The notes under the pieces: generated by a model | What the model saw: only the letters and a program-made list of their open reading frames with translations | Told to the model about the DNA's origin: nothing | The model's database searches: none | Translations under genes and position numbers: made by a program | DNA from: Bacteroidota bacterium | GTDB taxonomy: Bacteria > Bacteroidota > Bacteroidia > NS11-12g > UBA955 | DNA length: 64,000 nt | Reading direction: 5' to 3' | NCBI GenBank assembly: GCA_018333525.1 | Contig: JAGXTF010000012.1 | Span: 1 to 64,000 of the forward strand | Part shown: positions 6,141 through 38,402 of the stretch, piece by piece | Position numbering within the stretch: position 1 is the first letter of the stretch | Layout of the letters: each line of letters starts with the position of its first letter

Positions 6141-8735
6141 CTAGAAAAGGGTAGTTTTTAACTTCAAACAATGGACGTGATTTGGATCTATTTCCAAGCC
6201 TTTGATAACAACCTTCTTGGCATTTTTTCTATCACCTGCATTTAAATATAACCAAGCTAACTGTGAACAATCATCACTTTCGTAAGAGTTTTTATCCAAG
6301 ATATTTTTATAAGCAGTGATTAGTCTATGAGACAATATTTGCTTCTCAGAGTTATCAGTTTGAAATTTGTTATTTCTAAAAAGTGAATTTATCTTGAATA
6401 CAATTACTCTAATTTTGTCAATAGAGGTGATTGATAATTCACTCATTTCAATCAATGCATGCATTTCACCATCTGCGTCATGTGTTTTATAAAATAATTC
6501 AGCTAATTTTTCCCAACTACTATAAGTTTCATTTTCATTTGAAGTAGTTTCTAAATGGCGCTGTAATGACTGAATTGCCTTGTCAATCTTGCCTTCTTCC
6601 TCGTATAGCGATGAGAGGGTTAACCATGCGTAAGGATATTTCCTACAAATAAATTCCAATACCGGAATGTAATTTTCAAGCTTATCTAATTTTAAACTTA
6701 CCCTTTTAGCAATATCCCTGAAGAATTTGATTATTCTAGGTTCAATTCCAAGATGAATTTCTGTGTGAAGCCCAACCCCAAAAGTATGAAGTAATTTGGT
6801 ATCAGCTTGAATTGCGGTTTTCATGGGGCTTACAGATAATTTTTTCTTTCCAAATACTGAGGCGGAATATGGTACAGATAAGAACCTCATTCCATCTTTT
6901 TCGGAAACTTCAATTAGAACTAAGGAAGAACGGTATAATTCTTCAATTCCTTTTCCAACATCCATTAATTCATTGGCTTCACGAATGAGGGTAGCTTCAA
7001 TGGCAATTTCAGGTATGGTTGATCTCCAATTTGATAATGTTAAAAAAATACGTTTTGCAACTGGCGAGAGTCCATTATAAGTGCGTTCGAAAAGTGCTGT
7101 GAGTATTTCATCTTTACTTGCTACTATGCGTTTAACACGACTTAATTTTCCTTCTTTTGCAACATCACCTAATAATACCTTGATTACATACGGATGACCA
7201 TCAGATTCATTATAAAGTTCTTCAAGATAATCCTTATCATTTACCAATTCAGTAATTCCCAAACTTTCAGAGGTAGCTTGAACGAGTTGGTTAAACTCCT
7301 TCTCATTCATTCCATCAACTTCAATTGGGTAATCAGCTTTAAAATCTCGAAAACGTGAAGTGATAAGTATTTTATTGGGATTTCTAATAAAAGTATCCAG
7401 CCAATTAAATAAATCAATTGGCTCTTTCACCGTTTCAAAATTATCGAAAATATAAAGCGCTGGTCCAATTGAATTAATTTCTAGTTCTTTTTCAAAAAAG
7501 GATTTGGGTTTAAATCCTTTTACCTTTGATTCAGTAGGTTCAATAAGTTTGCAATATTCTTTGGCAATATCATCATTTGATAAAATATGCGCTTTCACTG
7601 GCTTTGCACCTTCCATTAAAAGATCGATATCACGAGCGCTAAACCAAATTATTGTCGCGTATCTTTGAGTATCACAAAGTTTCTTTAACACCGAAATAGC
7701 TAATGATGTTTTCCCTATTCCACCGCGGCCTGTTAATGTAATTATAGGGTGTCGTTCATCTAATAGTTTTTTATATAATTCATTTTCTAATTCTTCTCTT
7801 TCAATATATATCTGGTTAATACTTGGTAAGTTAGTAAAAACACTTCCTACCAGATCGAGTTTTCCAATTCCTTCTGTTTCACTTGAAGGGAGCTCTCCCG
7901 GTGGTGTTAAATGTAAGGAAGCATCTTGATATTCTTTGCTTCCTGTGATATAAGAAATCAATTCATATCGTTTATTATTAAACCCACCATTAGGAAAATA
8001 AAAATCAGTTAAATCCGAATTAGAGAGCAATAATTCAACCTTAATTGGTTTATTTAAGAAAATATATACTCCATTTTCGTAGTTCGAACTGTTGTCCTTT
8101 CTGAGATAATGAAATCTTGGTGCATTGTTGGATATATCAGTCACTTTATACTTTCCAGATAGATTTCTATGTAAATAGGCCCATTCAACACTTTTTAAAA
8201 GTGAGTAGTTTTCTTGAATTAGTGCAATAGAATTACATAAGTTATTGCAGATACTGGAATATACATCTGAGCTATAAGCCCCATGACCCCTTGTCTTGTT
8301 GCGTAAATATGCAAATTGTGAAAACCATGTTTTGCCAGAAACCTTAACTGAAATATCCTCAAAAGTTGGATCTATAACCTTTATACATTCCCCAAGTAGT
8401 TTAATACTTCGATGCTGCCAACTAGAATTCCCAAGTCTTTCATTCAATTCCTGCTGAAGTTGATTTGCTATAGGATTAAAATACTGTGAGGACGGACCCG
8501 ATAGAACTTCATCAATTACTGAACTCCATTCGCCAATGCCATCTGCCCTTAATAATTTATGTTCTTGGCTGTATCTGTGACGTTTGCTGTCATCCGTTAT
8601 ACAAGCTAATAAGCCTAAAGTAATTAACTTTGTTAATTGCTCACCGGCTAACATCAAATCCATGAAATAAGCAGTATCTGAATCATTTTTTGATGTTTCC
8701 AGCCTCTCTTTTATTTTATTAATAACTACCAGCAT
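6141..8735 (-). CDS. HEPN-STAND-TPR protein, probable antiphage NTPase
   Basis: This 864-residue protein is the last gene of the restriction-modification operon, 22 bases after hsdS. Residues 1-200 are helical and contain RNKTRGH at 145-151, which fits the R-x(4-6)-H motif of HEPN ribonucleases. Residues 210-290 look like a separate beta-rich module. A STAND/NB-ARC ATPase follows, with Walker A GRGGIGKT at 336-343, Walker B LYIFDNFE at 427-434, an Arg-containing ILITSRFRD at 456-464, and GHPYVIKVL near 513 in the position of the GxP/GLPL motif. The C-terminal 250 residues contain TPR-like helical pairs. This sensor-switch-effector order matches NLR-like bacterial immune proteins (Avs and relatives). 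RNA cleavage on phage sensing is my inference. Confidence 0.75.
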   Translation of the reverse strand: MLVVINKIKERLETSKNDSDTAYFMDLMLAGEQLTKLITLGLLACITDDSKRHRYSQEHKLLRADGIGEWSSVIDEVLSGPSSQYFNPIANQLQQELNERLGNSSWQHRSIKLLGECIKVIDPTFEDISVKVSGKTWFSQFAYLRNKTRGHGAYSSDVYSSICNNLCNSIALIQENYSLLKSVEWAYLHRNLSGKYKVTDISNNAPRFHYLRKDNSSNYENGVYIFLNKPIKVELLLSNSDLTDFYFPNGGFNNKRYELISYITGSKEYQDASLHLTPPGELPSSETEGIGKLDLVGSVFTNLPSINQIYIEREELENELYKKLLDERHPIITLTGRGGIGKTSLAISVLKKLCDTQRYATIIWFSARDIDLLMEGAKPVKAHILSNDDIAKEYCKLIEPTESKVKGFKPKSFFEKELEINSIGPALYIFDNFETVKEPIDLFNWLDTFIRNPNKILITSRFRDFKADYPIEVDGMNEKEFNQLVQATSESLGITELVNDKDYLEELYNESDGHPYVIKVLLGDVAKEGKLSRVKRIVASKDEILTALFERTYNGLSPVAKRIFLTLSNWRSTIPEIAIEATLIREANELMDVGKGIEELYRSSLVLIEVSEKDGMRFLSVPYSASVFGKKKLSVSPMKTAIQADTKLLHTFGVGLHTEIHLGIEPRIIKFFRDIAKRVSLKLDKLENYIPVLEFICRKYPYAWLTLSSLYEEEGKIDKAIQSLQRHLETTSNENETYSSWEKLAELFYKTHDADGEMHALIEMSELSITSIDKIRVIVFKINSLFRNNKFQTDNSEKQILSHRLITAYKNILDKNSYESDDCSQLAWLYLNAGDRKNAKKVVIKGLEIDPNHVHCLKLKTTLF

Positions 8736-8757
8736 TTGTCAAAATCAATACATAAGT

Positions 8758-10290
8758 TTACATCTTAGCCTTTTTATATTTTACCTTTTCTTCTGCTGCA
8801 ATTTTTAAAGGTTTCTCTTCAATGGAATAGGTTTTGGTTTTCTTGCCTTTCTTTTCTGCTGCTAATCTTTCTTTCTCCTTTTTTATTCTCTCCAACAACA
8901 CACTTGCTGGCTCATCATTGGGGTCTTGTGCCACCAACTCACCTCTAAATGCTTGTGCCAAAATGCTCTGCGGCAATTTATCCAGCATGGCTTTGGCTTT
9001 CATGTAACGGGCTTCAAACTTATCGGCAAAGGCAAAAAGTTGTTCTACCCTGCGGACGATTTCTATCTGTTCTTCATAAGGCGGCAAATTAATAAGTAAT
9101 GAACGAATAGAGATTTTATCAATTGTTATATTTCCAACTCCTTTGATATAATTCTTAATGTCAACTTCACCATATATGGAAGTTAAGTAATAATATATGT
9201 ATTTACTTTTTATAAATTCAGAATTAAATTTTAATGCAAATAAGTTCATAGCAAGTGAGCAAGGACTATTTAATTGTGGCATATAATATACTTTACCTGC
9301 ATTACCGATTTTACCTATAATTACCTCACCACCGAAAAGTTTAGATTTTTTTAAAAAGTTGTATCCATGTTCGTTAATGTATAGCATTAAACTAGCGAAA
9401 TTGTTTTTCTCGAAATTCGTGGCCCTAATCATCATCGCATAATCAGGTTTATCAAGTAACTCCACATTTTTTTTAAGAATTACGTAACTGCCATTAGCAT
9501 GATAGTCTGTTAATTCATCATGTATTTGACCCAACCTGCATTGTATCCAGCTTTCGGGAGTTTCTATATTATAGGAATATTCTTCCAGATATGATTTCGA
9601 CAACTTTGGGTTTGAGGAACTTCTTGAAATTTCAATTTTATCTAATAAGAGACTTGCATTCTCTATATTAGTATTTAACGTCCTCCAATCTTCCGTCAAC
9701 TTACCATTTACCGCAGTAGCCAAAACCGATTGCCGAAAGCGTCTGAGCAGTTTGGGTATTTTATCTAAGCGTTGTTTGTTGCTTTCTACCTTTTGCATTA
9801 CCGCATCCAACTTGGTTACTATACGGTGTTGTTCAGCAAGGGGTGGGATTGGGATTTCAATTTCACTTGCTCCATTATCTGTTAATGCTTCTTGAGTTGA
9901 ACCCGTTGCTAAGTCATTTTTTTGAGAAAGGAATAAATCAGATTTTATCAAATAATAAAGCAACTTATTATGATAAGTATTTCCAAATGGTCGAATTTGT
10001 AAAAACCCGGTTGAGAATAATTGTCCATCAAGTTTTTCATCTACCAAAATTCCTTTATCGGTTGCTTTCATTCTTGCTTGCAACACATCACCAATTTCTG
10101 CTATTCTATTTGCCCTTGAAGGTCGATTATTAAAAGTAAATTCACCTTCTGGAGTGTATTCGTTATCTTGAATACTGCCTGTTGAATAATATTTTTTAGT
10201 TCCTTTGAATTCCGTTACACCTGTTGGTAAGAAATTCAATTCCTCAACTAGCTTAACTAATTCCCAACTATTTGGTAAATTATTCTCCAT
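8758..10290 (-). CDS. hsdS: Type I restriction-modification specificity subunit HsdS
   Basis: This 510-residue protein has the two target-recognition-domain layout of HsdS. The first conserved linker (PPLAEQHRIVTKLDAVM, about residues 148-164) is followed by a helical stretch ending LLRRFRQSVLATAVNGKL. The second half repeats the pattern (PPYEEQIEIVRRVEQLF, then LPQSILAQAFRGELV). The HsdS subunit sets the DNA sequence recognised by both methylase and nuclease complexes. Its start overlaps the hsdM stop by 11 bases, so translation is probably coupled. The Lys-rich C-terminal tail of about 45 residues is longer than usual. Confidence 0.92.
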   Translation of the reverse strand: MENNLPNSWELVKLVEELNFLPTGVTEFKGTKKYYSTGSIQDNEYTPEGEFTFNNRPSRANRIAEIGDVLQARMKATDKGILVDEKLDGQLFSTGFLQIRPFGNTYHNKLLYYLIKSDLFLSQKNDLATGSTQEALTDNGASEIEIPIPPLAEQHRIVTKLDAVMQKVESNKQRLDKIPKLLRRFRQSVLATAVNGKLTEDWRTLNTNIENASLLLDKIEISRSSSNPKLSKSYLEEYSYNIETPESWIQCRLGQIHDELTDYHANGSYVILKKNVELLDKPDYAMMIRATNFEKNNFASLMLYINEHGYNFLKKSKLFGGEVIIGKIGNAGKVYYMPQLNSPCSLAMNLFALKFNSEFIKSKYIYYYLTSIYGEVDIKNYIKGVGNITIDKISIRSLLINLPPYEEQIEIVRRVEQLFAFADKFEARYMKAKAMLDKLPQSILAQAFRGELVAQDPNDEPASVLLERIKKEKERLAAEKKGKKTKTYSIEEKPLKIAAEEKVKYKKAKM

Positions 10291-11686
10291 CTTTTTCCAA
10301 TAGGGTTAAAATGTCACGTAAATCATCCACCACGGCTTCCAGTTCTGCAATGGCTTCGGTGGCTAAATCATTTGGTTCGGGCAAGCTATCGGCATCTTCC
10401 ATGCTGTCATCTTTTAGCCAGGTAATGTCTAATTTGTAATTCCGTTTTTTTATTTCGTCCATCGTAAAGCAACGGAAACGTCCAGTTTCACCTTCGTCTT
10501 TTCGTTTGCTGTTTCCGTTTGGGTCGGAGCCGTAGCATTTTTCAAAATCGGCAAAATGTTTATCCGTTAATGGTCGGTCTTTTTTGGTAATGCCTTCTAT
10601 ATTACTGCGGTTATCATAAATCCAAACTTTTTCGGTCGGCAATCCTTTTTGGAAGAAAATTACATTGGCTTTTACACCTTGCGCATAAGGCGTAAATGTT
10701 CCTCTTGGCAAACGAACAATGGTGTGCAAGTTGCAATCCTGCATCAATATTTCAAATACTTCACCTGCTTTATCTTCAAACAGAACATTATCAGGCAGTA
10801 CAATGGCGGCGCGTCCGCCAGGTTTTAATGTGCTCATAATATGCTGTACAAAATTTAACTGTTTGTTACTTGTTTCTATTGTAAAGTCGTCTCTCTCAGG
10901 CACCTGGTTAGCACCTTTGGTGCCAAATGGAGGATTGGCCAATACCACATCAAACCTGGTGCTATCAGGAGTGTTGTAAATGGTATCGCCCAATTTTATT
11001 TTTGGTGTTACACCATGCAAATACATGTTCATTAATGCCAGGCGTCTTGGCCGGGCCACCAACTCTTGTCCGAAATATGTTTTTTCACGAATACGTTTTA
11101 CATCCTCGCGCGGGATAACTCCTTTGCTTTCCTTCATCAGCCATTCATAAGCACATACCAAAAAACCACCCGTGCCGCATGCCGGGTCAGAAATAGTAAA
11201 TGAGTTTTTGCCTCTCGGATCTGGCTTCATCAACCTCACCATGCTTTGAATTAGAGGGCGGGGGGTAAAATATTGCCCTGCACCTTTCTTTCCTTCGCTG
11301 GCCGCTTTTTCCAAGAGTCCTTCAAATGCTGCCCCTTTTACATCCACATCCATGCTTGTCCATTCATCTTCTTCAATCAGGTTTAAAAGTTTTTTCAAAC
11401 TCACCGGATTGTTGAAACGGTTTTGCGCTTGTGTAAATATTTCTCCCAACAGCCCTTGTTCTTTAGCCAGTTCCCGAAGCGTATCGCTATAGTGGTCCAT
11501 CAAATCCCCACCACTCAATTCTTTCAGTGCTTGCCAATTGTATTTTTCTGTTAAATGCACTTCTTTTTCGTCTGCCATTTTCAAAAAGAGCAGAAAAGAC
11601 AATTGCTCTATATAATCGTTATAATCAATGCCTTCGTGGCGAAGGGTATGGCAAAATCCCCATAATTTATTTACTACATCACTCAT
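10280..11686 (-). CDS. hsdM: Type I restriction-modification DNA methyltransferase subunit HsdM
   Basis: This 468-residue N6-adenine methyltransferase has the SAM-binding motif DPACGTGGF at residues 167-175 and the catalytic motif NPPF at 251-254. An N-terminal helical domain of the HsdM_N type (IDYNDYIEQLSFLLFLKMADE) precedes them. With HsdS it methylates one adenine on each strand of the recognition site to protect host DNA. It lies between the DinD-like fragment and hsdS in a single minus-strand operon. All key residues are present, so an active enzyme is expected. Confidence 0.95.
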   Translation of the reverse strand: MSDVVNKLWGFCHTLRHEGIDYNDYIEQLSFLLFLKMADEKEVHLTEKYNWQALKELSGGDLMDHYSDTLRELAKEQGLLGEIFTQAQNRFNNPVSLKKLLNLIEEDEWTSMDVDVKGAAFEGLLEKAASEGKKGAGQYFTPRPLIQSMVRLMKPDPRGKNSFTISDPACGTGGFLVCAYEWLMKESKGVIPREDVKRIREKTYFGQELVARPRRLALMNMYLHGVTPKIKLGDTIYNTPDSTRFDVVLANPPFGTKGANQVPERDDFTIETSNKQLNFVQHIMSTLKPGGRAAIVLPDNVLFEDKAGEVFEILMQDCNLHTIVRLPRGTFTPYAQGVKANVIFFQKGLPTEKVWIYDNRSNIEGITKKDRPLTDKHFADFEKCYGSDPNGNSKRKDEGETGRFRCFTMDEIKKRNYKLDITWLKDDSMEDADSLPEPNDLATEAIAELEAVVDDLRDILTLLEKDGE

Positions 11687-11739
11687 TTTTTTTTCTTCTT
11701 TATAGGTAAAATTTGTTTTTCATCGACTTGTTAATTGCC

Positions 11740-12081
11740 TTACAGTTTCAGTATAAATTTGACAAGAGGTAAATTCTCGTGCACAATTCCATGTTCGATA
11801 AGCATTTTAAGAACTGCGAGATTATTATAAATATCCTTTGTTTTAGAACCTTTGTGTATTGGTATCGTTTTCTTGAAATCAGGAAAACGATCTTTAACTT
11901 CTTCAATAACATGTTTGCCGGAATCTTTGGCTTTTGAAATTTCCTTTTCAAAATTCTCACATTTGCTATATCCCAAAAGCTTTTGTAATTCTCTCGCACT
12001 CCAACATTCCACGTCGTTGTATATATAATAAATGCTCTCAAACTTTTGAAATAGATCGCGTATTAGTTCTTTTTTCATCAA
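11740..12081 (-). CDS. DinD/BRO-like protein, probably internally deleted
   Basis: This 113-residue protein starts with a segment (FESIYYIYNDVECWSAREL, then LLGYSKCENFEKEISKAK) that matches the N-terminal domain of DNA-damage-inducible protein D and related BRO proteins. After about residue 75 it jumps to LKMLIEHGIVHENLP, which resembles the far C-terminus of DinD (a GI-x-PE-(D/N)LP motif). DinD is normally about 270-290 residues, so roughly 160 central residues seem to be missing. It is still an open frame in the restriction operon, between the HsdR pieces and hsdM. It may be a remnant or a small functional derivative. The DinD assignment rests on remembered motifs only. Confidence 0.55.
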   Translation of the reverse strand: MMKKELIRDLFQKFESIYYIYNDVECWSARELQKLLGYSKCENFEKEISKAKDSGKHVIEEVKDRFPDFKKTIPIHKGSKTKDIYNNLAVLKMLIEHGIVHENLPLVKFILKL

Positions 12082-12090
12082 ATAATTCTA

Positions 12091-12777
12091 TCAGGCTGCG
12101 ATGGCCTGGTTAATTTCATATATAATTTGTGGGAAATCGGCAGGAAATACTTTTTTGAATTTATTTAATCCACCCCGGTCAGCAAAAACGGGTAATTCCT
12201 GAAGGTCGTTTTCGTCCAAAGTCATGTTTTGTTTTAAATGTTCTTTGATGTATTCCATCCATTTTTGTTGTTCCGCATTTAAGGTTTTCCCTGCAGTTAC
12301 TTTTCGTATGGCCTGGTTTACCCTTTCGTCAGGACTTAGCAAAGGTTCGGTTTCCTTGGCTGCATGCTTAACCATGCTGATAATATCCACTGTGTCTTTA
12401 TGATAAACAATTCTGTGCGCCTTTTGCAAATTTGCTTCATCATAATTGCTTTCTTTCAATTTTTCTTTCAGTTCGTTTAATGCATTTGTATTCCAATCTT
12501 TCGGTTTGTTTAATAAAATACCAATTGCTGCAATTTCATTTTCTTTTCTCTTTACAAACTCAGAAAAGGCAAGCAAATAGTCGGTTGGTTGCAATCCGTA
12601 TCTGCCCTCTGCTTCGAACAGAACAATGGAACTTACTTCGTCCTGCACTTCATACCCAACCATAAAAACTTTTTTAGCTCTTTCGTAGTCTGTCAATAGT
12701 TTTTGGAACTGCTCGTTTTGAAGCAATTCCATTACACTGCTGAAGCCATCAAATATTTCTGAAAACGACTTTGCCAT
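12091..12777 (-). CDS. Type I restriction enzyme R subunit, C-terminal domain as separate protein
   Basis: This 228-residue all-helical protein (SFSEIFDGFSSVMELLQNEQF, later TPDE-like segments and FPQIIYEINQAI) fits the EcoEI-type C-terminal domain of HsdR, which contacts the methylase core. Its ATG overlaps the stop of the upstream helicase gene in a TAATG arrangement at 12775-12779. The two products are therefore probably made in fixed ratio and assemble into one motor subunit. Together (676 + 228 residues) they equal a full EcoEI-type HsdR. The frames differ, so this is either a stable gene split or an old frameshift that became a coupled pair. Confidence 0.75.
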   Translation of the reverse strand: MAKSFSEIFDGFSSVMELLQNEQFQKLLTDYERAKKVFMVGYEVQDEVSSIVLFEAEGRYGLQPTDYLLAFSEFVKRKENEIAAIGILLNKPKDWNTNALNELKEKLKESNYDEANLQKAHRIVYHKDTVDIISMVKHAAKETEPLLSPDERVNQAIRKVTAGKTLNAEQQKWMEYIKEHLKQNMTLDENDLQELPVFADRGGLNKFKKVFPADFPQIIYEINQAIAA

Positions 12778-14807
12778 TAATTATAAGCATCAAAAAATTT
12801 GGAAATTTGTTCCGCAAATTTTCCCATATCTCCATCAGGAATATAGGTTTTGAATTTGTCCCTTGCATTTCCACTCATGTCTTTTTCTATGCGGTGAAGC
12901 CTTTTGCTCAATCGCTTTGCGTTTGACTTGCGGTCGTCGTTGTTGTATATTTTTTCAATGAGTTCTTTAATAGTAATTGTATCTGTACCGGGAGGGTCAA
13001 TCTTAAAGTTGTAGCTGGCATCTTTAAAATATTTTATTAATGTTCCGTTAAAGCAATCAAAAATTACAAAATGGGTTTTGCCAATATCATCACATTTTCT
13101 CGTGCCTCTTCCTAGCATCTGTTCCCATAGAATTCGACTTTTTATAGGTCTTAGAAAAACGATATATTCCAAAGAAGGAATGTCAACACCAGTGCTTAAC
13201 ATGTCTACTGTTACCACAATTTTGGGATTGGGCCTGTTCCGAAACTCTTTTATTTTTTTCAAAGGTCTGTCCACCGTTGGGCTTCCAGTAATCTTTGCCA
13301 CAAAGTCATCACCCCGATTGAAAACAGATTTGCAGATACTCACCAAACGATCGGCATGAGAAATCATAGGAATATCATTTGAAGCAAAAATTAAGGTCTT
13401 TGGAAATCTCCCTTTTTCTTTTTCAAATTCGTCTGCATATTTTTTTAGTTCTTCAATTATTTTTTGGTTGGTATCTGGCGCTGTAATTTTTTCTTCAATC
13501 TCTGTTGAAGTAAATTCCCTTTCATCTTCCAGTTGGTCAATTTGTTCTCTGCCCGTCTCAGTGTCTATCATTCCCACTTGTTCCCCTTCTTTTAAAAATG
13601 CGCCATTCATCAATACTTCTGAATTGATTGCGACAGCATCATAATCCACCAAATAACCTTCGTCAATTGCAGTTTGCAATGGATAATTGTAAATGGGTTT
13701 CCCGAAATAGGCAACAGTATGGGAAGCAGGTGTTGCCGTTAAACCTACTTTTACTGCGTCAAAATGATTGAGCACATTCCGCCAGACATTGGTTTCTTTT
13801 GAAGTATAACCTCTGTGGCACTCGTCTGCAATAATTAAATCAAAGGCATGTGAAGGAATGGAAAGTGTTTCTTCTTCTTCATCTCTGCTTTCTTCATCTT
13901 CACCAAATGCGCCCATTTTCCCGTAAAGGTTTATTGCCATTCGCTGAATGGTACATACATAAAGAAATGTTTTTGTACCATCAGGATTTGTTAAATAAGA
14001 GTTGGGCAAAACCGTTGGGTCATATGCTTCGCCTTCAAAATCTTCTTTTCTAAATCGTTGTGAATACAATTCATATTCGTCTTTAAATTTAATATTTCTT
14101 GGCGTGTCAAAGGACGCAAAAGCAGTAACGGCTTGTGCTGCCAAAGATTTACGGTCAACCAAAAACAAAATGCGTTTTGCATAACCAGATGCCAACATCC
14201 GGTAAACAAGATTAACAGTTGTAAATGTTTTTCCTGTCCCTGTAGCCATCGCTAAAAGCATCAAGCGTTTGCCATCTTCCAAATTATTTTCAAATGCCTG
14301 TATCGCGTCTTTTTGGTAAGGCCTGAGTCCTGGAGTATTAATTGGCTTGTCTTTCAGCCATTGCAAAGCCGTTTCTCTTTTGGAATTAAATAATGTTTCC
14401 ATTGCTTCAGGAGTATGGAAAGCATAAATCTGTCGGCTTAGGTTTTTACTGTCTCTGGTATCTAAGTAATAAATCAATTCGCCATTGGAGGAATATAAAA
14501 ACGGAACGCGATATTGATTCCATTCGCCAATTGTCTTGCTAGCACCTTTTGAATAACGTTTTGCTTGTTCCAAAACATTTTGGGCACCAACTTCCAATTT
14601 CTTTGCTTCCACAACGCCTAATAATTTTCCATATACTACCAAGGCATAATCTGCGGGGCCATTCTCGGTCTGAATTTCTTCAATGGCATGATTGGTCAAG
14701 GAGGTCAAATCCATTCCCTCAGAATAAGTAACAAGAATCCAGCCGGAAGCCTTTAGCTGTTGGTCTATTCTTATCTTTCGTGTTATTTTCTCTGATTCGT
14801 GGGGCAT
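12777..14807 (-). CDS. hsdR: Type I restriction enzyme R subunit: nuclease and DEAD/DEAH translocase
   Basis: This 676-residue protein has an N-terminal PD-(D/E)xK nuclease domain with D53 and E67-x-K69 (GVVEAKK). The superfamily 2 motor follows, with Walker A ATGTGKT at 188-194, Walker B DECH at 328-331, motif III GLTATPAS near 357, and motif VI with LGRGTR. It is the ATP-driven translocase and endonuclease of the type I system that cuts unmodified foreign DNA. The EcoEI-type C-terminal domain is absent and supplied by the next gene. It is the first gene of the operon; the region upstream (14808-14959) should hold the promoter, but I see only a partial match. Confidence 0.93.
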   Translation of the reverse strand: MPHESEKITRKIRIDQQLKASGWILVTYSEGMDLTSLTNHAIEEIQTENGPADYALVVYGKLLGVVEAKKLEVGAQNVLEQAKRYSKGASKTIGEWNQYRVPFLYSSNGELIYYLDTRDSKNLSRQIYAFHTPEAMETLFNSKRETALQWLKDKPINTPGLRPYQKDAIQAFENNLEDGKRLMLLAMATGTGKTFTTVNLVYRMLASGYAKRILFLVDRKSLAAQAVTAFASFDTPRNIKFKDEYELYSQRFRKEDFEGEAYDPTVLPNSYLTNPDGTKTFLYVCTIQRMAINLYGKMGAFGEDEESRDEEEETLSIPSHAFDLIIADECHRGYTSKETNVWRNVLNHFDAVKVGLTATPASHTVAYFGKPIYNYPLQTAIDEGYLVDYDAVAINSEVLMNGAFLKEGEQVGMIDTETGREQIDQLEDEREFTSTEIEEKITAPDTNQKIIEELKKYADEFEKEKGRFPKTLIFASNDIPMISHADRLVSICKSVFNRGDDFVAKITGSPTVDRPLKKIKEFRNRPNPKIVVTVDMLSTGVDIPSLEYIVFLRPIKSRILWEQMLGRGTRKCDDIGKTHFVIFDCFNGTLIKYFKDASYNFKIDPPGTDTITIKELIEKIYNNDDRKSNAKRLSKRLHRIEKDMSGNARDKFKTYIPDGDMGKFAEQISKFFDAYN

Positions 14808-17149: not shown

Positions 17150-18061
17150 ATGTCTTTGCTCATTATTGGTTCTGTAGCCTTCGATGCTATTGAAACCCCT
17201 TTCGGCCAAACCGGAAAAATTGTCGGCGGCAGCGCCTCCTACATCTCCCTCGCCTCCTCTATGTTCTGTGATCGGGTGGGACTGGTTGCCGTGGTGGGTG
17301 AAGATTTTGATTTTGAATTCCTCGAAACCCTCCGCTCCCGCGGGGTGGATACCAACGGCGTTCAGGTGAAAACCGGCGAAAAATCTTTTTTCTGGAGCGG
17401 CAAATACCATTTGGACATGAATTCCCGCGATACTCTCATCACCGAACTCAATGTGCTCGGAGATTTTGATCCCATTATTCCACAGGAATGGGAGAGCCCG
17501 GATTTTGTGATGCTAGGAAACCTCTCGCCCGGCGTGCAAATCACCACTTTACAAAGACTGAAAAAACGCCCCAAGCTGGTAGTGATGGATACCATGAATT
17601 TCTGGATGCAGATTGCACTCCCCGAATTGCACGAAGTTCTGAAAATGGTAGACCTGCTCACCATCAACGACGAAGAAGCCCGCCTGCTCAGCGGAGAACT
17701 CAGCCTGCTGAAAGCCGCGCGAAAAATCCAATCCATGGGTCCCCAATATTTGATTATCAAAAAAGGAGAACACGGTGCACTTTTGTTCGGGCCTGATAAT
17801 CAGATTTATTTTTGTCCTGCTTTGCCACTGGAAGAAGTTTTTGACCCCACCGGTGCCGGCGACACTTTTGCCGGAGGATTTTTGGGCTACCTGGCATCGC
17901 AGGATACCGTTGATTTTTCTGTAATGAAAAAAGCTCTCGTATACGGCAGCAGCGCCGCGAGTTATTGCATCGAAAAATTCGGGACTGAAAGGTTGCAGGA
18001 AATTAATAAAACGGATGTGGAATCCCGCCTAAAATTATTTCACGAATTGGTTGCGATTTAA
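17150..18061 (+). CDS. PfkB-family carbohydrate kinase
   Basis: This 303-residue ribokinase-fold kinase has the N-terminal glycine pair VGGSAS near residues 25-30. The C-terminal PfkB signature DPTGAGDTFAGGF at 232-244 contains the catalytic base Asp (D238) and anion-hole glycines. It transfers phosphate from ATP to a sugar or nucleoside-like hydroxyl in the cytosol. Substrate residues are not diagnostic, and I would not choose between ribokinase, fructokinase or adenosine-kinase-like roles. The stop codon overlaps the stop of the convergent GH13 gene by four bases. Confidence 0.93.
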   Translation: MSLLIIGSVAFDAIETPFGQTGKIVGGSASYISLASSMFCDRVGLVAVVGEDFDFEFLETLRSRGVDTNGVQVKTGEKSFFWSGKYHLDMNSRDTLITELNVLGDFDPIIPQEWESPDFVMLGNLSPGVQITTLQRLKKRPKLVVMDTMNFWMQIALPELHEVLKMVDLLTINDEEARLLSGELSLLKAARKIQSMGPQYLIIKKGEHGALLFGPDNQIYFCPALPLEEVFDPTGAGDTFAGGFLGYLASQDTVDFSVMKKALVYGSSAASYCIEKFGTERLQEINKTDVESRLKLFHELVAI

Positions 18062-19944
18062 CGCAATTTCAGAATTAAAAAACTTCCTCCGGCAATTTCC
18101 ATGGAACTGTTGAGTTCCACTTCGGAATTGTCCAGAAGGTTTACCGCGGTACTATACCCGCCAAGCCTTTCTTGAAATCTGGAAAAGGTAACCGATTGGT
18201 TTTCTTTTTCAGTGTTTGTAATAACCATGATGCTGTTTTTTTCGTCGTAACGAAAGAAAACATAAATGCCTTTTTCTACCGGGTATTGCATCATTTTTCC
18301 ATTGGTGAGTATGGGATTTGCAAGGCGAATTTTCATCAGTTTGGTGAGATAATCGTAACCGATTTGTTCTTCTTTACTGCGCCCGGTTAATAAAAATTTA
18401 TTTTTGGAATCTGATTTCCATCCACCCGGAAAGTCGCTCTGGGCGGGCATGCTGCCGGGTAAGTCAGAAGACAACATAATTTCCGAACCATAATAAATTA
18501 CAGGAATACCGCGCAACGTAAACAAATAAGCATATACCATTTTCCAGCGGTTTACATCATTGCCGCACTGGTCTACCACGCGCTTTTCCAGACTGTTGTC
18601 CAGAAAGGTGAGATTCAATGAAGGGTTATCATATAAAATATCATCGGACAATGCAGTATATAAACTGGAAACCGAATAGGTGAGATGCAAATCTTTAGAC
18701 ATCATATTCCGGAAAACATAATGCAAATAATAATCTGGAATGGATTGCAAGCGGTTATTTTCAAATCCGGTAATATTGTTTTTTACCATAGAAGCTTGTG
18801 CCGCAATGGAATTGGTTTTGGTATCCGTAATGATGCTGACACCCGGAAATTCCTCTTCCAGAATTTTGCTGAGATGCGCCAGATAGGTATCGCTAAACAA
18901 AGAAACGCGGTTGATGCAATACCCGGAAATTCCGGAATATTCCAACCACCAGATATATACCTGATCCAGGTATTTCTGCATATGCGCATTTTCCTGATTT
19001 ACATCGGGAGAATTAATATCTATCCAACCGGTGATGGCGCGCATTCTATCACCTGGAGAATAATAGGGATCGTTGATGCTGTAAGACGTAAAATCAGGAT
19101 GAATAAAAGTATCCCACTGGTTGAACCAGCCGGTGTCAAAACTGCTGTACAGCCAATGGTTCATGCTGAAATCATTTGGATTGATATCCATGATGGATTT
19201 CAGATTTTTCTTGCGGCATTCTGCAGTTAATTTTTGAAACTGATCGTTATTTCCAAGTCGCGGATCCACATTAAAATGATCGCTGATGGAAAATCCGAGA
19301 TAACTTTTTTCGGGATGGTTGTTTTCCTGCACCGGAGTAAACCAAACAGCAGTAATTCCCAGACTTTTGATATAATCCAAATGGCTGTGAAAACCCTTTA
19401 AATCCCCGCCGTGCCTGGCTTCCGGATCGTTGCGATCCACAGAGGTTCTGCTACCTGGATGGTGGTTGTCATTGTTTTCGTCCCCATTGGAAAACCGGTC
19501 TAAAATAACGCGGTAGAGAATATCATTTTCATTTAAAGAAGATCGCAAAACGGGAGTTCTTGCGCGCAATTCGTAAACGAATTTAAATGCCTTTGCATAA
19601 CGCGGTCTGAAGATGGAAGGTTTGCAAACGAAAATTAAATTCACGGGTTTTGCATCTGGAGAAATTTGGAGATTTAAATAGGCAATATGTCGGTTTCCGC
19701 TATTGGTTTTTCCTAGAAATTGAACGCCTTCAGCTTCTTCCATTTGCATGTCGTACAAATCGATATTTTCGGCGTGAATCAGAATTTCGAGAGTGGGATC
19801 TTTAAAGCCTACATACCAATGTGCAGGTGCCAGGTGGTGTACCTTGGGCGGGGGTGTTGCTGCATTCGCGGAAGAAAAAAAAATGCATGCAAACAGCGCA
19901 AACCAAACCTTCAAAATGAAATGCAATTGTATTTTTTTTTGCAC
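18058..19944 (-). CDS. Secreted GH13 alpha-amylase-family protein lacking catalytic residues
   Basis: This 628-residue protein has a signal peptide (residues 1-28) and an N-terminal beta domain of the cyclomaltodextrinase type (VHHLAPAHWYVGFKDP). A GH13 barrel follows (DRFSNGDENND, HGGDLKGFHSHLDYIKSLGITAVWFTP, then GIPVIYYGSEIM). The fold signature is clear, but the four catalytic regions are altered. Region I has IMDINPND at 251-258 where NH is expected. Region II has GYCINRV at 341-347, so the usual Arg is C343 and the nucleophile Asp is N345. Region III has ITDTKT, with Asp at the acid/base Glu position. Region IV has FLDNSLEKR, with SL for HD. It is probably a non-catalytic glucan-binding or regulatory paralogue in the periplasm or at the cell surface. 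Confidence 0.85.
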   Translation of the reverse strand: MQKKIQLHFILKVWFALFACIFFSSANAATPPPKVHHLAPAHWYVGFKDPTLEILIHAENIDLYDMQMEEAEGVQFLGKTNSGNRHIAYLNLQISPDAKPVNLIFVCKPSIFRPRYAKAFKFVYELRARTPVLRSSLNENDILYRVILDRFSNGDENNDNHHPGSRTSVDRNDPEARHGGDLKGFHSHLDYIKSLGITAVWFTPVQENNHPEKSYLGFSISDHFNVDPRLGNNDQFQKLTAECRKKNLKSIMDINPNDFSMNHWLYSSFDTGWFNQWDTFIHPDFTSYSINDPYYSPGDRMRAITGWIDINSPDVNQENAHMQKYLDQVYIWWLEYSGISGYCINRVSLFSDTYLAHLSKILEEEFPGVSIITDTKTNSIAAQASMVKNNITGFENNRLQSIPDYYLHYVFRNMMSKDLHLTYSVSSLYTALSDDILYDNPSLNLTFLDNSLEKRVVDQCGNDVNRWKMVYAYLFTLRGIPVIYYGSEIMLSSDLPGSMPAQSDFPGGWKSDSKNKFLLTGRSKEEQIGYDYLTKLMKIRLANPILTNGKMMQYPVEKGIYVFFRYDEKNSIMVITNTEKENQSVTFSRFQERLGGYSTAVNLLDNSEVELNSSMEIAGGSFLILKLR

Positions 19945-20314
19945 CCTACAAAGTAAAGGTTTTTCTCCGAAGGTAGGAGAGTAAATATGAATTCAAAGGG
20001 ATTATAGATGTGGTATATATGAAGATGCACGCCCGAATAGATTGTTAAAGCTGGGGTATAGTGCGTTTCAGCGATGTGGTTGGAGGAAGGGCAGTGCCGC
20101 CCTTCCCTGCAAGTAATTGATAATGGTTGGCAAAATTGTGTTTAAGTGAGATGCGTATTTGAATAATAATTTCATCTATAAAACACATGTTTTTATCCAA
20201 ACAATACTATTAGTTGTTCTAATAGAACTGCTGATAGAATGAATACGCAAATTTTATTATAGAACAATTTCGGATAACCTATTTTTTTAGAGTTTAGAAG
20301 AAAAATTTGTTTTA
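19945..20314. other. Gene-free region
   Basis: No credible gene is visible. Two small inverted repeats can be seen, gaagggc-agtgcc-gcccttc near 20094-20113 and tattag-ttgtt-ctaata near 20207-20223. The rest is AT-rich. Confidence 0.45.
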
Positions 20315-20520
20315 CCACCTTTGGCATTGCCCAAAGGTGGAGCCCCGCCCGAATGACATGGTCGGGCGGGCAAAGGCTAGCGGCTGCAATGGCCTTAGTC
20401 TTCACGCTAGAAACCATCCGAATGCCCGCCCGAACGGTACGGGCGGGCATTCGGATGCTTTCGTCGCTAAGAAGCCACGTCCATTGAGGCCGCGTCCCGG
20501 GCCGCAGGGATTTTTTCGCA
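20315..20520. repeat. Cluster of three GC-rich hairpins in a dispersed-repeat-like block
   Basis: There are three inverted repeats in a row: ccacctttgg-cattgc-ccaaaggtgg (20315-20340), cccgcccga-N9-tcgggcggg (20344-20370), and an 18-bp perfect stem with a 7-base loop at 20415-20457 (arms begin catccgaatg and end cattcggatg). The GC-rich sequence runs on to about 20520. Its base composition differs sharply from the AT-rich flanks. The open frames that cross it are by-products of high GC content. It may be a multicopy element or a structured RNA. Confidence 0.65.
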
Positions 20521-20587
20521 GGTTTAATTGGTAACAGTTGTTGCATTTGTTTGCTTCGATTGAAACACCGATTTTCAATGCAATGCC

Positions 20588-20638
20588 CAACCCCGTAGGG
20601 GTTGAATTTTCGTAGCCCGGGGTTTTAACCCCGGGTAC
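20588..20638. repeat. Twin-hairpin repeat
   Basis: Two adjacent perfect inverted repeats are present, caacccc-gta-ggggttg (20588-20604) and cccggggtt-tt-aaccccggg (20616-20635). The latter extends by gta/tac with one bulged base. This paired-hairpin form is common in intergenic DNA of Bacteroidota and resembles BIME/REP composites. Confidence 0.65.
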
Positions 20639-20795
20639 GCAAAATTTTATGAAATTGTTTGGCATCCATTTTTGCGTCGAAGGCAAGGCAAAAATGATGA
20701 CAAACAATAAAATGATTCATGCAAATTGTTGTAACGGTTCGCGGAGGTTTTCCGAGTATTACCGATTACAAAAACGTGCCTCTCTCGGAGCGCAA

Positions 20796-21403
20796 TCATC
20801 TAATGTCAAAACGAAATGCGGAATGGTTTCCCAAAAACCCTTCCAGCTGATCGCCGGCCTGCACAGGCCCCACACCAGACGGGGTGCCGGTGAAAATGAG
20901 ATCCCCTTTTTTCAGGGTAAAAAATTGGGATACATATGCAATAATGGCATCGATAGAATAAATCATATCGCGGGTATTTCCCTGTTGTACTAAAACACCA
21001 TTTTTTTTCAAGGAAAATTCCTGATTATCCAATTGAAATTCGGATTTCGGAAATGTTTTTCCAATTACTGCAGAATGGTCAAACCCTTTGGCTTTTTCCC
21101 ATGGCAGACCTTTGGTTTTTGAATGGTTTTGTAAATCGCGTGCGGTGAAGTCAATGCCCAGCCCCACCTCATCGTAATAGGTGGCAGCGAATTTTTCGGG
21201 AATGGCTTTTCCGTGTTTTTTTATTTTTACAAAAACCTCCACTTCATAATGCACTTCCTGCGTAAATGCGGGAATAAAAAATGGAGAATTGTTGCGCAAA
21301 ACTGCCGAATCCGGTTTGATAAAAATGACCGGTTCTTCGGGGGTTTCGTTTTTTAATTCGCGAATATGTTCGCTGTAATTTCTTCCTATGCAAATGATCT
21401 TCA

Positions 21404-21404
<1 letters not shown>
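20796..21404 (-). CDS. Fumarylacetoacetate hydrolase family protein
   Basis: This 202-residue protein has the FAH-fold core (CIGRNYSEHI, PVIFIKPDSAV, then HYEVEVFVKI with the metal-ligand Glu residues, and GLGIDFTARDLQ). The C-terminal FTGTPSGVGPVQAGD motif is also present. Members hydrolyse or decarboxylate small acylpyruvate-type diketo acids, such as acylpyruvate or oxaloacetate, with a divalent metal. The length matches the short bacterial FAHD1-like group. Its ATG overlaps the purA stop (TGATG), so it is the third gene of a fur-purA-FAH operon. Confidence 0.92.
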
Positions 21405-23664: not shown

Positions 23665-25095
23665 TTATGGGAATATACCCAGCTCGCGGTAAGACATACC
23701 TACCTTTTTGATGCCGAGTACAAAGGCTGCAGTGCGCATATTTTCAATATCCGGATGCTCCGCCATGGTATGCAAAATGTCTTTCAGGCTGGTGATCATG
23801 GTTTCTTCCAAACCGGAATACACCAGGTCCACTTCATCTGCACCGCGAAGAATATGGTCTTTCTCTGCCGCATCAATCTTTTGACCGGTAAGGGTTTCCA
23901 TCTGGCTCACAATATGCGCGTTCATGTTTTCTGTAAAGCGCTTTTCCATTCTGCCGTAGCGAACGTGGCTCAGGTTTTTCAACCATTCGAAATAGGAAAC
24001 CGTTACACCGCCTGCATTCAGATAAATATCAGGAACCACCAGAATGCCTTTTTGGGTGAGGATTTCATCTGCTTCCACCGTTACAGGGCCATTTGCAGCT
24101 TCTGCAATAATTCGGGCCTTGATTTTTGGTGCATTGTCCTGTGTAATTACATTTTCCAATGCTGCTGGAACAAGTATGTCGCATTCCAGTTCCAGGGCAT
24201 CGCCGCTCTTTTCCAGATTGGTTGCACCCGGAAAATTCAGGATGCTGCCGGTTCTTTTGCGGTGTTCAAAAACTTCGTCTTCATTGAGTCCGTTGGGATT
24301 CATAATAGCGCCTTCGAATTCTGCAATGGCAATCACTTTGGCACCACCCTGACGGAAAAATTTCGCAGAGTGAAAACCCACATTTCCCAAACCCTGCACC
24401 ACCACGGTTTTTCCTTCCACACCGGGAGCGAGTTTGGCTTTTTTCATGATTTCTTCATGTTTGCACAATTCTTTGATGCCATAAAAAACACCCAATCCTG
24501 TGGCTTCTTTGCGGCCTCTTACGCCACCCTGGGAAACCGGTTTGCCAGTAACACAACCAAGTCCGTCGATTTCGCCGGCGCGCATGGCCATATAAGTATC
24601 CGCAATCCAGCCCATTTCGCGCTCGCCGCTACCGTAATCCGGAGCAGGAACATCGATACCGGGGCCAATAAAATTCTTTTTCACCAGTTCTGCAGTGTAG
24701 CGCCTGGTAATGCGCTCCAGTTCCAGCTCTGTATATTTTTTCGTATTTACTTTAATACCGCCTTTGGCGCCGCCGAAGGGAACATTAACAATCGCACATT
24801 TATAAGTCATTAAAGACGCAAGTGCCATTACTTCATCCTGATTCACATCTTCGCTGTAACGGATACCACCCTTGCAGGGAGTTTTGTGCTGAGAGTGCTG
24901 CACACGGTATGCTTCTACCACTTCAATCCTGTCGAGGTCTTTCCCCAGTCTTACCGGGAAACGCATACGCAACACATGGTTGCAAGCTTTTATCTGTTCC
25001 AGAATTCCCTCATCAAAGGGAGTATACTTAGCGGCTTTGTCAAAATAGTATCCTACTGTTTCATAGAAGGTGTATTTGCTGTTTGCTGTAGACAT
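23665..25095 (-). CDS. Glu/Leu/Phe/Val dehydrogenase
   Basis: This 476-residue cytosolic enzyme reversibly deaminates an amino acid, most likely glutamate, using NAD(P). Visible motifs are the substrate/catalytic segment TPCKGGIRYS (the Lys is catalytic), VPFGGAKGGI, PAPDYGSGEREM with the catalytic Asp, and the dinucleotide fold VQGLGNVGFHSA. The length is slightly above classic hexameric GDH (about 420-450). The region beyond 430 carries a C-terminal extension. A promoter-like TTG-N23-TAggTTTG lies upstream at 25122-25155. Confidence 0.93.
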   Translation of the reverse strand: MSTANSKYTFYETVGYYFDKAAKYTPFDEGILEQIKACNHVLRMRFPVRLGKDLDRIEVVEAYRVQHSQHKTPCKGGIRYSEDVNQDEVMALASLMTYKCAIVNVPFGGAKGGIKVNTKKYTELELERITRRYTAELVKKNFIGPGIDVPAPDYGSGEREMGWIADTYMAMRAGEIDGLGCVTGKPVSQGGVRGRKEATGLGVFYGIKELCKHEEIMKKAKLAPGVEGKTVVVQGLGNVGFHSAKFFRQGGAKVIAIAEFEGAIMNPNGLNEDEVFEHRKRTGSILNFPGATNLEKSGDALELECDILVPAALENVITQDNAPKIKARIIAEAANGPVTVEADEILTQKGILVVPDIYLNAGGVTVSYFEWLKNLSHVRYGRMEKRFTENMNAHIVSQMETLTGQKIDAAEKDHILRGADEVDLVYSGLEETMITSLKDILHTMAEHPDIENMRTAAFVLGIKKVGMSYRELGIFP

Positions 25096-36422: not shown

Positions 36423-38402
36423 ATGCATAGAAATTACTTCCTCCTCATTTTATTTGTCTTTAATTTATCCTTATTCTCTCAAAACAACAACGCATTGCAA
36501 TGGAGCAATGACGTGCGGGAAATACAGGAGTTTCAGACAATTCCGGACCGAAATTTTAGTCCGAAATCGGCCATGTCACAGTCCAACTGGAGGGTGCATC
36601 ATTCAAATGAATCGAATTTGTCTGCCGACACAAATACCTATTGGGCGCGATTTGCATTGGTGAATCAAACGGATGCAGATCATACCTGGATTTTGGAATT
36701 GGATAAATGGACCGACGTTCAATTGTATATAAACGGAGATGATAAAAATCCAAAACGAACCGGACATTTTGTTGCCTTTGACAAAAAAGATTTTGCACAT
36801 GCAAATTACAATTTGTTGCGGGTGGATATACAAGCCGGAGACACAGTTTCCTGTTTGTTAAGGCTGGAGAAGTCCAACGCTTATTTCGCGGTTCCTGCCA
36901 GCTTTGAATTTAAGGCCATGAGTCTGGAAAAGTATTTTTCCAATCAATTTAAAAGCAGGATTTGGCTGGGATTGTTTCTCGGTTTTTATCTGATAATGCT
37001 CGCTCATAATTTATTTATTTACTGGTCTACCAAAGACCATTACTATGTGCATTATTTAATCATACTGGCCACACTGTTGTTGCTTACGCTACACAACTTC
37101 GGATATACGGTTTCCCTGCTGCATTTTATTCCCAATTACGGGTTTATCCATGCAAAGGTTCAATTTATTCTCAGTGCAATACTCGGTGTAAATATGATAT
37201 TATTTACCCAGCAGTTTCTGCATTTGAAAACCGAATTTCCGCGCATTCATAAATTGTTGCGCATATTGATGATTCTGGTTATTCTAATGCCATTACCCTC
37301 CTTCTTCGGACAGGCAGAAGTGAATGAAAAAATTTCCGGAATGTTGGGGACACTTACCATGATAGTGATCATGATTACTGCGGTTAAATCCTGGCTCGCG
37401 AAATTTCCTTCATCCGATTATTTTGTAGTGGGATACGGCGCATTTTCAACCGGAATTGTAGTTTTATTGCTGAGTTTTCTCGGTATTTTACCGGCCTATT
37501 TTCTGGAATATTATCCTATGAATATCGGTTCCAGTATTGAAATGATTTTCTTTTCCATTGCGTTGGGGAACCGAATTAATTTACTGGCGAGAGATAATGA
37601 AGAAAAACAAAAACTTATCATTACACAGCTTCGTGCCAATGAAGAATTGCAGACAAAAGTGAACCGGGAACTGGACCAAAAGGTAAAAGAACGCACGATA
37701 GAAATTGAAAAGCAAAAAATAGAAATTGAGGAGCAACGCGATTTGGTTGCCATGGAGAAAAAGAAATCCGATGAATTGATTCTGAATATTTTGCCAGCAG
37801 CAACTGCTGAAGAATTGAAGCTTACGGGAAAGGCAAAACCCCAATACTATGAATCTGCTTCCGTATTATTTGCCGATATAGTTTCATTCACCAAAAAAGC
37901 TATGGAAGCAGAGGCAAATGAAATTGTTGCAGATCTGGATTATTGTTTTGGTGCATTTGACACCATAATGATGAAATACAATATGGAAAAAATTAAAACC
38001 ATAGGCGACGGTTATCTGGCAGTTGGAGGCATTCCTATTGCAAATGAAAGCAATCCCATGGATGCCATACGGGCAGGGATGGAAATGCAGGAATTCATGA
38101 AATCCTTTGCTGCTGCGAGAAAAGCGAAGGGAAAAAATGAATGGGGAATTCGAATTGGAATTCACACAGGACCAATCATTGCCGGAGTTGTAGGTAAAAA
38201 TAAATTTGCCTATGATGTTTGGGGCGATACCGTAAATACTGCATCGCGAATGGAATCTGCAGGAGAAAGCGATCGTGTGAATGTTTCTGAAAGCACCTAT
38301 TTATTGGCAAAAAATCATTTTACATTCGCTCACAGGGGAAAAGTGCATGCAAAAAATATTGGTGAAATGGACATGTATTTTGTGGTGAAAGAATTGAATT
38401 AA
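36423..38402 (+). CDS. Membrane receptor with 7TMR-DISM-like part and class III adenylate cyclase
   Basis: This 659-residue protein has a signal peptide (residues 1-19) and a periplasmic beta domain (20-175, with YWARFALVNQTDADHTWILEL). Seven membrane helices follow (about 180-385), then a coiled coil (390-455, KQKIEIEEQRDLVAMEKKK) and a class III cyclase domain (about 460-659). The catalytic domain has the metal site SVLFADIVSFT and EKIKTIGDGYLAVGG with Lys. YDVWGDTVNTASRMES has the Asp and Arg expected for ATP rather than GTP. It should make cAMP in response to an external ligand. The next gene starts 14 bases later, so the receptor heads the VioB-like/halogenase operon. Confidence 0.92.
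   Translation: MHRNYFLLILFVFNLSLFSQNNNALQWSNDVREIQEFQTIPDRNFSPKSAMSQSNWRVHHSNESNLSADTNTYWARFALVNQTDADHTWILELDKWTDVQLYINGDDKNPKRTGHFVAFDKKDFAHANYNLLRVDIQAGDTVSCLLRLEKSNAYFAVPASFEFKAMSLEKYFSNQFKSRIWLGLFLGFYLIMLAHNLFIYWSTKDHYYVHYLIILATLLLLTLHNFGYTVSLLHFIPNYGFIHAKVQFILSAILGVNMILFTQQFLHLKTEFPRIHKLLRILMILVILMPLPSFFGQAEVNEKISGMLGTLTMIVIMITAVKSWLAKFPSSDYFVVGYGAFSTGIVVLLLSFLGILPAYFLEYYPMNIGSSIEMIFFSIALGNRINLLARDNEEKQKLIITQLRANEELQTKVNRELDQKVKERTIEIEKQKIEIEEQRDLVAMEKKKSDELILNILPAATAEELKLTGKAKPQYYESASVLFADIVSFTKKAMEAEANEIVADLDYCFGAFDTIMMKYNMEKIKTIGDGYLAVGGIPIANESNPMDAIRAGMEMQEFMKSFAAARKAKGKNEWGIRIGIHTGPIIAGVVGKNKFAYDVWGDTVNTASRMESAGESDRVNVSESTYLLAKNHFTFAHRGKVHAKNIGEMDMYFVVKELN

Follow-up and report, generated by a model that had tools for sequence, protein, structure and literature searches.

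What is a secreted protein of the α-amylase family (GH13) kept for once its catalytic residues have gone? This question is raised by a gene in the window, by which we mean the whole stretch of 64,000 nucleotides of a Bacteroidota genome analysed here. The gene (18058-19944, minus strand) is complete, with a GTG start, 628 codons and no internal stops, and its assignment to the SusA-type proteins of GH13_46 draws on the open reading frame, Pfam, alignments to solved relatives and an AlphaFold model. A frameshifted pseudogene can be rejected, as the frame contains no stop. The 628-residue product begins with a putative signal peptide (residues 1-28; 19861-19944), recognised as a hydrophobic helix, which spans residues 2-23 in the model, with a cleavage site near ANA-A placed by eye. 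It is followed by an N-terminal Ig-like domain, Cyc-maltodext_N (residues 34-135; 19540-19845; PF09087 match at residues 38-129 with an E value of 7.8e-12), whose constraint is unrelaxed according to the rate analysis below. Pfam and the model then delimit a barrel region carrying the former active site (residues 136-520; 18385-19539; Alpha-amylase match at 148-491), and Pfam a C-terminal region (residues 521-628; 18061-18384; Cyc-maltodext_C match at 551-626), all on the minus strand.

The closest solved relatives turned out to be SusA of Bacteroides thetaiotaomicron (9fyz, E 2.8e-104) and the cyclomaltodextrinase of Flavobacterium sp. 92 (1h3g and related entries), both of GH13_46, which share with the window protein the order N domain, barrel, C domain and the signal peptide. 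Identity to these enzymes is 30-33% over about 585 residues, with Z scores of 42-50. The AlphaFold model has a mean pLDDT of 86.1 and a pTM of 0.86, and it superposes on SusA with a Z score of 49.6 and 2.3 Å across 583 residues, and on 1h3g with a Z score of 42.5, residues 33-628 being aligned. The intact frame, the retained GH13 fold and the signal peptide, all three proposed in the initial annotation of this DNA, are thus borne out, the last as probable.

The window protein differs from SusA and the Flavobacterium enzyme in the former active site, where the catalytic acids, the region II arginine and both histidines are changed. Residues were assigned by pairwise alignments to 9fyz and 1h3g and by a 40-sequence family alignment. 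The nucleophile Asp is replaced by N345 (18910-18912), the acid/base Glu by D374 (18823-18825), the region IV His-Asp pair by S451-L452 (18589-18594), the region II Arg by C343 (18916-18918) and the region I His by D258 (19171-19173), all read on the minus strand. Each of these positions is invariant across the 22 intact orthologues compared. An intact Asp-Glu-Asp machinery was a selection criterion in a survey of GH13_46 (PMC9781549); the window protein has N345, D374 and L452 in its place. The conserved region CSR-V, MPDLN in the subfamily and MPDxN in most intact relatives, reads SPDVN (312-316), and the aromatic end of CSR-II with its two tyrosines has been lost (NRVSLF instead of DTYPYP). 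Other cleft residues are also gone (H216 to L, Y218 to F, W376 to K), while W332-W333 is retained across all inactivated proteins compared. Alignment to these two relatives of known structure confirmed each replacement originally listed (Asn, Cys, Asp, Ser-Leu, and the missing region I His) and found none of the three acids intact. The accompanying statement that every catalytic position is changed needs one correction: it applies to the three acids, the region II Arg and both histidines, whereas the region I Asp persists (D253), the sole survivor among the catalytic positions checked. A misalignment of the catalytic motifs is rejected, given that the pairwise and family alignments agree (the structural alignment gives ranges only). 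Since the frame is intact, the model is confident and the same kind of loss is found in related genomes, the catalytic loss is neither chance nor sequencing error. Judging from the lost residues, the protein probably has no hydrolase activity.

Could the old cleft have acquired a new catalytic activity, using other acids (D253, D258, D374) or C343? Several acids do still lie near the cleft, and BmaN1 of GH13_45, which likewise departs from the invariant GH13 triad, is described as active although its stabiliser Asp is replaced by His (PMC5347038). However, only one triad residue is changed in BmaN1, which keeps its nucleophile and acid/base, whereas all three are changed in the window protein. 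The replacements also differ among the inactivated lineages described below, even between two proteins that are 91% identical, which is unlike a conserved new site. We regard this explanation as highly improbable.

The inactivation is recurrent in the family, which could not be seen by the initial annotation from the sequence of the window. An orthologue is present in 43 of the 70 genomes of the window's GTDB family: 33 copies are intact at all seven positions, three are partial (cut, and intact where visible), one is an uninformative fragment and six are dead, that is, catalytically changed. The six dead copies span four genera: the window (g1), G008 (g9), G013 and G022 (g14), and G030 and G074 (g6). 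Orthologues with the same kind of change as the window protein therefore do exist, in five further genomes of the family, but the replacements themselves differ by lineage. In G008 the nucleophile is Lys and the acid/base Phe; in the g14 pair the nucleophile is Lys (G013) or Glu (G022), the acid/base Met and the His-Asp pair Asp-Phe; in the g6 pair the region II Arg is His, the acid/base Gly and the His-Asp pair Thr-Ser, with the nucleophile Asp retained. Frames are full-length in all five dead copies that no contig end truncates, and the model of G008, a second dead lineage, has a pLDDT of 83.3. A contig profile search with the window protein alone found no relative; with an alignment of the dead proteins it found 11 loci, ten of them already in the set and one a short fragment.

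For comparison, 133 loci from beyond the order were read in 395 sampled genomes of the class: 127 are intact, four are cut but intact where visible, one is dead (L251) and one is L249. The matches were kept at E ≤ 1e-60, so that strongly drifted copies may be missed. A dead copy is thus carried by 6 of the 43 family genomes that have the gene, but found at only 1 of these 133 loci, a concentration in the window's family. L251 (G351:C1:198670-200672), considered together with L184, comes from another family of the class; it is a full-length paralogue with a changed triad and has an intact copy at a distance of about 4 kb, an arrangement in a bacterium like that of the plant isoamylases ISA1 and ISA2. 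L249 (G145:C9), also of GH13_46, has the region II Arg changed to Cys and the region I Asp to Glu with the triad intact, and is a possible intermediate.

The locus and the genome content show what accompanies the inactivation. The window gene is flanked by a convergent PfkB-family sugar kinase gene (17150-18061, plus strand), a conserved neighbour of the intact and most dead copies, and on the other side by a conserved FAA hydrolase-family gene (20796-21404, minus strand). The common order is the pfkB kinase, the SusA-type gene, the FAA hydrolase, purA, a fur-like gene and a SPOR gene (purA and fur-like being names read from the sequences, not from a domain scan); it is seen in the window, G008, G030 and the intact g4, g5, g6 and g11 loci, within contig reach and barring lineage-specific extra genes. 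In G074 a contig end adjoins the gene and the pfkB side alone is visible, and the g14 copies occupy another site, next to CTP synthase and a RecQ-type helicase. A recent horizontal gain of the window gene is rejected, the gene order being the same as at intact orthologues. Between the SusA-type and FAA hydrolase genes, the intact loci of g4-g6 have a divergent gene for a secreted protein; the three scanned carry CBM20, CBM48/AMPK1-CBM or X25 modules and a type IX secretion tail. The corresponding intergenic stretch of the window (19945-20795), the site of such a starch-binding gene in many intact relatives, has no remnant of it in its 851 bp (best tblastn E 0.66). This starch-binding family gave no match at E ≤ 1e-10 in the window genome (G000), G008, G013, G022 and G030, and G074 has a distant relative elsewhere in its genome (E 3.8e-27). 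Elsewhere in the window, an NB-ARC and TPR protein lies next to genes resembling a restriction-modification or helicase cluster (6141-14807), possibly a defence island (the first protein was scanned), and a tryptophan-halogenase-family protein (40670-42550) belongs to a gene run after a 7TM-DISM adenylate/guanylate cyclase-type protein (36423-38402).

When the window genome (3.7 Mb, 97.8% complete) was searched in six frames, this open reading frame was the sole PF00128 match, and in all six dead genomes every PF00128 match falls within the dead frame. By contrast, between 2 and 9 PF00128 matches occur in each of the 36 genomes whose copy is intact, wholly or as far as visible; these counts may include several pieces of one gene, the position of the second match being unlisted for some genomes (e.g., G076, with two matches). 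Completeness is 98, 95, 91, 100, 70 and 66% for G000, G008, G030, G074, G013 and G022, respectively, and the absence of other GH13 genes in g14 weighs less because its two genomes are just 70 and 66% complete. Two further pathway markers proved uninformative: GH77 is absent from all 22 genomes tested, and PF08323 is found in 21 of the 22, also where GH13 is absent. A short GT5 glycogen-synthase-type protein (frame of about 270-320 residues) occurs in 21 of 22 family genomes, even those without GH13, and is probably not a marker of glycogen metabolism here.

Did the inactivation arise once? In a maximum-likelihood tree, from which the cut copies L018, L028, L043 and L044 were excluded, the g6 dead pair is nested among intact g6 proteins (support 100/98), to which it is 54-58% identical, against about 35% to the window protein. 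The g1, g9 and g14 dead proteins cluster (99/98) on long branches, and because of these branches the grouping is unsure. When the six dead proteins are forced to be monophyletic, the cost is 26 log units (AU p 0.053). Two or more origins are thus likely, though not proved, a single origin being only marginally rejected. A glutamate dehydrogenase gene, with the SPOR gene on one side and the phosphoglycerate mutase gene on the other, is present in the window (23665-25095) and in G008 (79%) and was not found in the other loci compared; its sharing is consistent with a kinship of g1 and g9.

It was originally stated that the window gene is under selection. No near relative of it was found in the searches made, and the case for selection comes from the intact frame and the dead sister pairs. 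In neutral simulations (300 runs each) no stop appeared in about 1% of runs at 15% residue loss and in about 5% at 10%. The pairs G030/G074 and G013/G022 have dN/dS values (NG86) of 0.17 (0.066/0.391) and 0.14 (0.045/0.324), respectively, and are under purifying selection; ten intact pairs give 0.02-0.23, the upper value belonging to the most diverged pair. Constraint is thus measured in two dead sister pairs, and the window gene is presumably under selection as well, as originally proposed. The constraint has shifted from the barrel to the N domain. The barrel ω is 0.16 and 0.14 in the dead pairs vs. 0.009-0.024 in four intact pairs, and that of the N domain is 0.19 and 0.11 vs. 0.04-0.14. 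On a fixed tree the ratio of barrel to N-domain branch length is 0.27-0.57 in 14 of the 15 intact end branches with a barrel length of at least 0.1 (the exception, L021, has a ratio of 5.0 on a very short N branch); it is 1.9 for the window, 3.7 for G008, 3.1 for the short end branch of G030, 2.3 for the g14 stem and 1.0 for the g6 stem. In all 231 intact pairs of the clade the barrel is more alike than the N domain. The window and G008 show the reverse, with 51% identity in the N domain and 36% in the barrel (bootstrap interval of the difference 0.04-0.26), and among intact pairs with an N-domain identity of 0.5-0.6 none has a barrel identity below 0.70. The unchanged rate of the N domain could also mean that this domain was never constrained by catalysis.

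These rates bear on the explanation that the gene is a decaying relic, in which catalysis is no longer selected and which drifts towards loss, its frame being still intact for reasons of time or through selection against misfolding. The barrel constraint is about 6-18 times weaker in the dead than in the intact pairs, the two g14 proteins differ at a former catalytic position (the nucleophile, Glu/Lys), and the gene is absent from many genomes of the family; in G031 pfkB is followed directly by the FAA hydrolase gene and purA, a clean deletion. Against such decay stand the ω values far below 1 in two dead pairs, the full-length frames of the five uncut dead copies and a constraint on the N domain about as strong as in the intact enzymes. 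Overall we consider it rather unlikely, although conceivable for the window lineage.

The residues lost and kept show how far the relaxation extends. The window protein keeps 95 of the 146 columns invariant in the 22 intact orthologues. L145, P148, L174, N203, H216, Y218, A287, L339, T346, E374, W376, V377, W421, H451, D498 and R502 are lost in every dead protein compared (five proteins, G022 being outside the count), and the substitutes vary from lineage to lineage, which speaks against a new ligand or reaction shared by all these clefts. In the window protein the losses show no significant enrichment in the conserved motifs (26 of 45 columns kept in the motifs vs. 69 of 101 elsewhere, p 0.26), and the same holds for four of the five dead proteins; the relaxation thus concerns the whole barrel, not the active site alone. 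Many structural residues are kept in all dead proteins compared, as are P40, W43 and Y89 in the N domain, and S82, N84, R85, H86, I87, Y89 and L90 are invariant among the six. In the g6 dead pair, the cleft motifs have an ω of 0.085, below the 0.159 of their own barrel, which is consistent with retained binding in that lineage.

The initial annotation favoured a secreted glucan-binding or sensing pseudoenzyme, in which the cleft, or the N domain acting as a starch-binding domain, would hold maltodextrin without cutting it. The export signal, the retained fold and the constrained cleft motifs of the g6 pair fit this proposal, and docking in the GH13_46 survey (PMC9781549) has raised the possibility that the N domain of this subfamily binds starch. 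It is not supported, however, by the genomes, which have neither another GH13 gene nor an adjacent starch-binding gene, nor by the cleft, where H216, Y218, E374, W376 and V377 are lost in all dead lineages with differing replacements; the same survey also notes that solved structures show no glucan on the N domain. In our judgement a glucan-binding or sensing role is rather unlikely, if worth keeping in mind.

What, then, may the protein be kept for? Our preferred reading, to which we give an even chance, is that it is a selected, non-catalytic pseudoenzyme acting through its N domain and overall fold. Its ancestor would have been a working periplasmic maltodextrin hydrolase of the SusA type, from which the gene descended in place. 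The lineage would have given up α-glucan degradation and lost its other GH13 genes; catalysis would then no longer have been selected, and the catalytic residues would have drifted away, an order of events that we infer. What preserved the protein would have been a second function, independent of catalysis, for which the fold and particularly the N-terminal Ig-like domain are needed; contact with other proteins or assembly into oligomers in the periplasm seems the most likely. We put such a contact or scaffold function first because the N domain of the Flavobacterium enzyme reportedly participates in oligomerisation (PMC9781549). The preferred reading is weakened by the lack of motif-concentrated losses in four of the five dead proteins and by the constrained cleft motifs of the g6 pair.

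Known non-catalytic members of the α-amylase family offer precedents by analogy. Plant isoamylase 2 is likewise a GH13 protein without catalytic residues that is kept by selection, and it acts in a complex (PMC12510319); however, it is a paralogue beside the active ISA1 and serves starch synthesis, whereas the dead protein of the window is the only GH13 protein found in its genome. A paralogue aiding an active copy is therefore rejected for the window, L251 in G351 being one such case. The ectodomains of 4F2hc and rBAT (SLC3) are amylase-type folds described as ancillary subunits for stability and trafficking (PMC8537225), but these are animal membrane proteins bound to SLC7 transporters and belong to another part of the α-amylase family. 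Both examples indicate that non-catalytic GH13 roles exist. GH13 pseudoenzymes are already known as a kind, and the window protein would be a variant of it. No report of a dead GH13_46 protein was found in the open-licence literature; the survey cited above, as its selection criterion is described, took proteins with intact machinery alone, and dead members of the subfamily would be excluded from it.

The finding has several implications for the family. Among related genera one gene, mostly at one locus, is found intact, dead or deleted, so that nature has repeatedly run an experiment on why an enzyme is retained when its chemistry has become dispensable; a possible moonlighting of SusA-like enzymes is thereby opened to testing. 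If the dead gene were labelled 'alpha-amylase' or 'neopullulanase', starch degradation would be wrongly attributed to these bacteria, whose genomes yielded no other GH13 gene. As a tentative and rather doubtful generalisation, the SusA-type enzymes of this family may have a second job in their N domain, as an oligomeric periplasmic scaffold or partner, that outlives the use of starch; when the starch genes are lost, the enzyme would either be deleted or turn into a non-enzyme that keeps this job. If this is true, the intact SusA-type enzymes of the family would be bifunctional.
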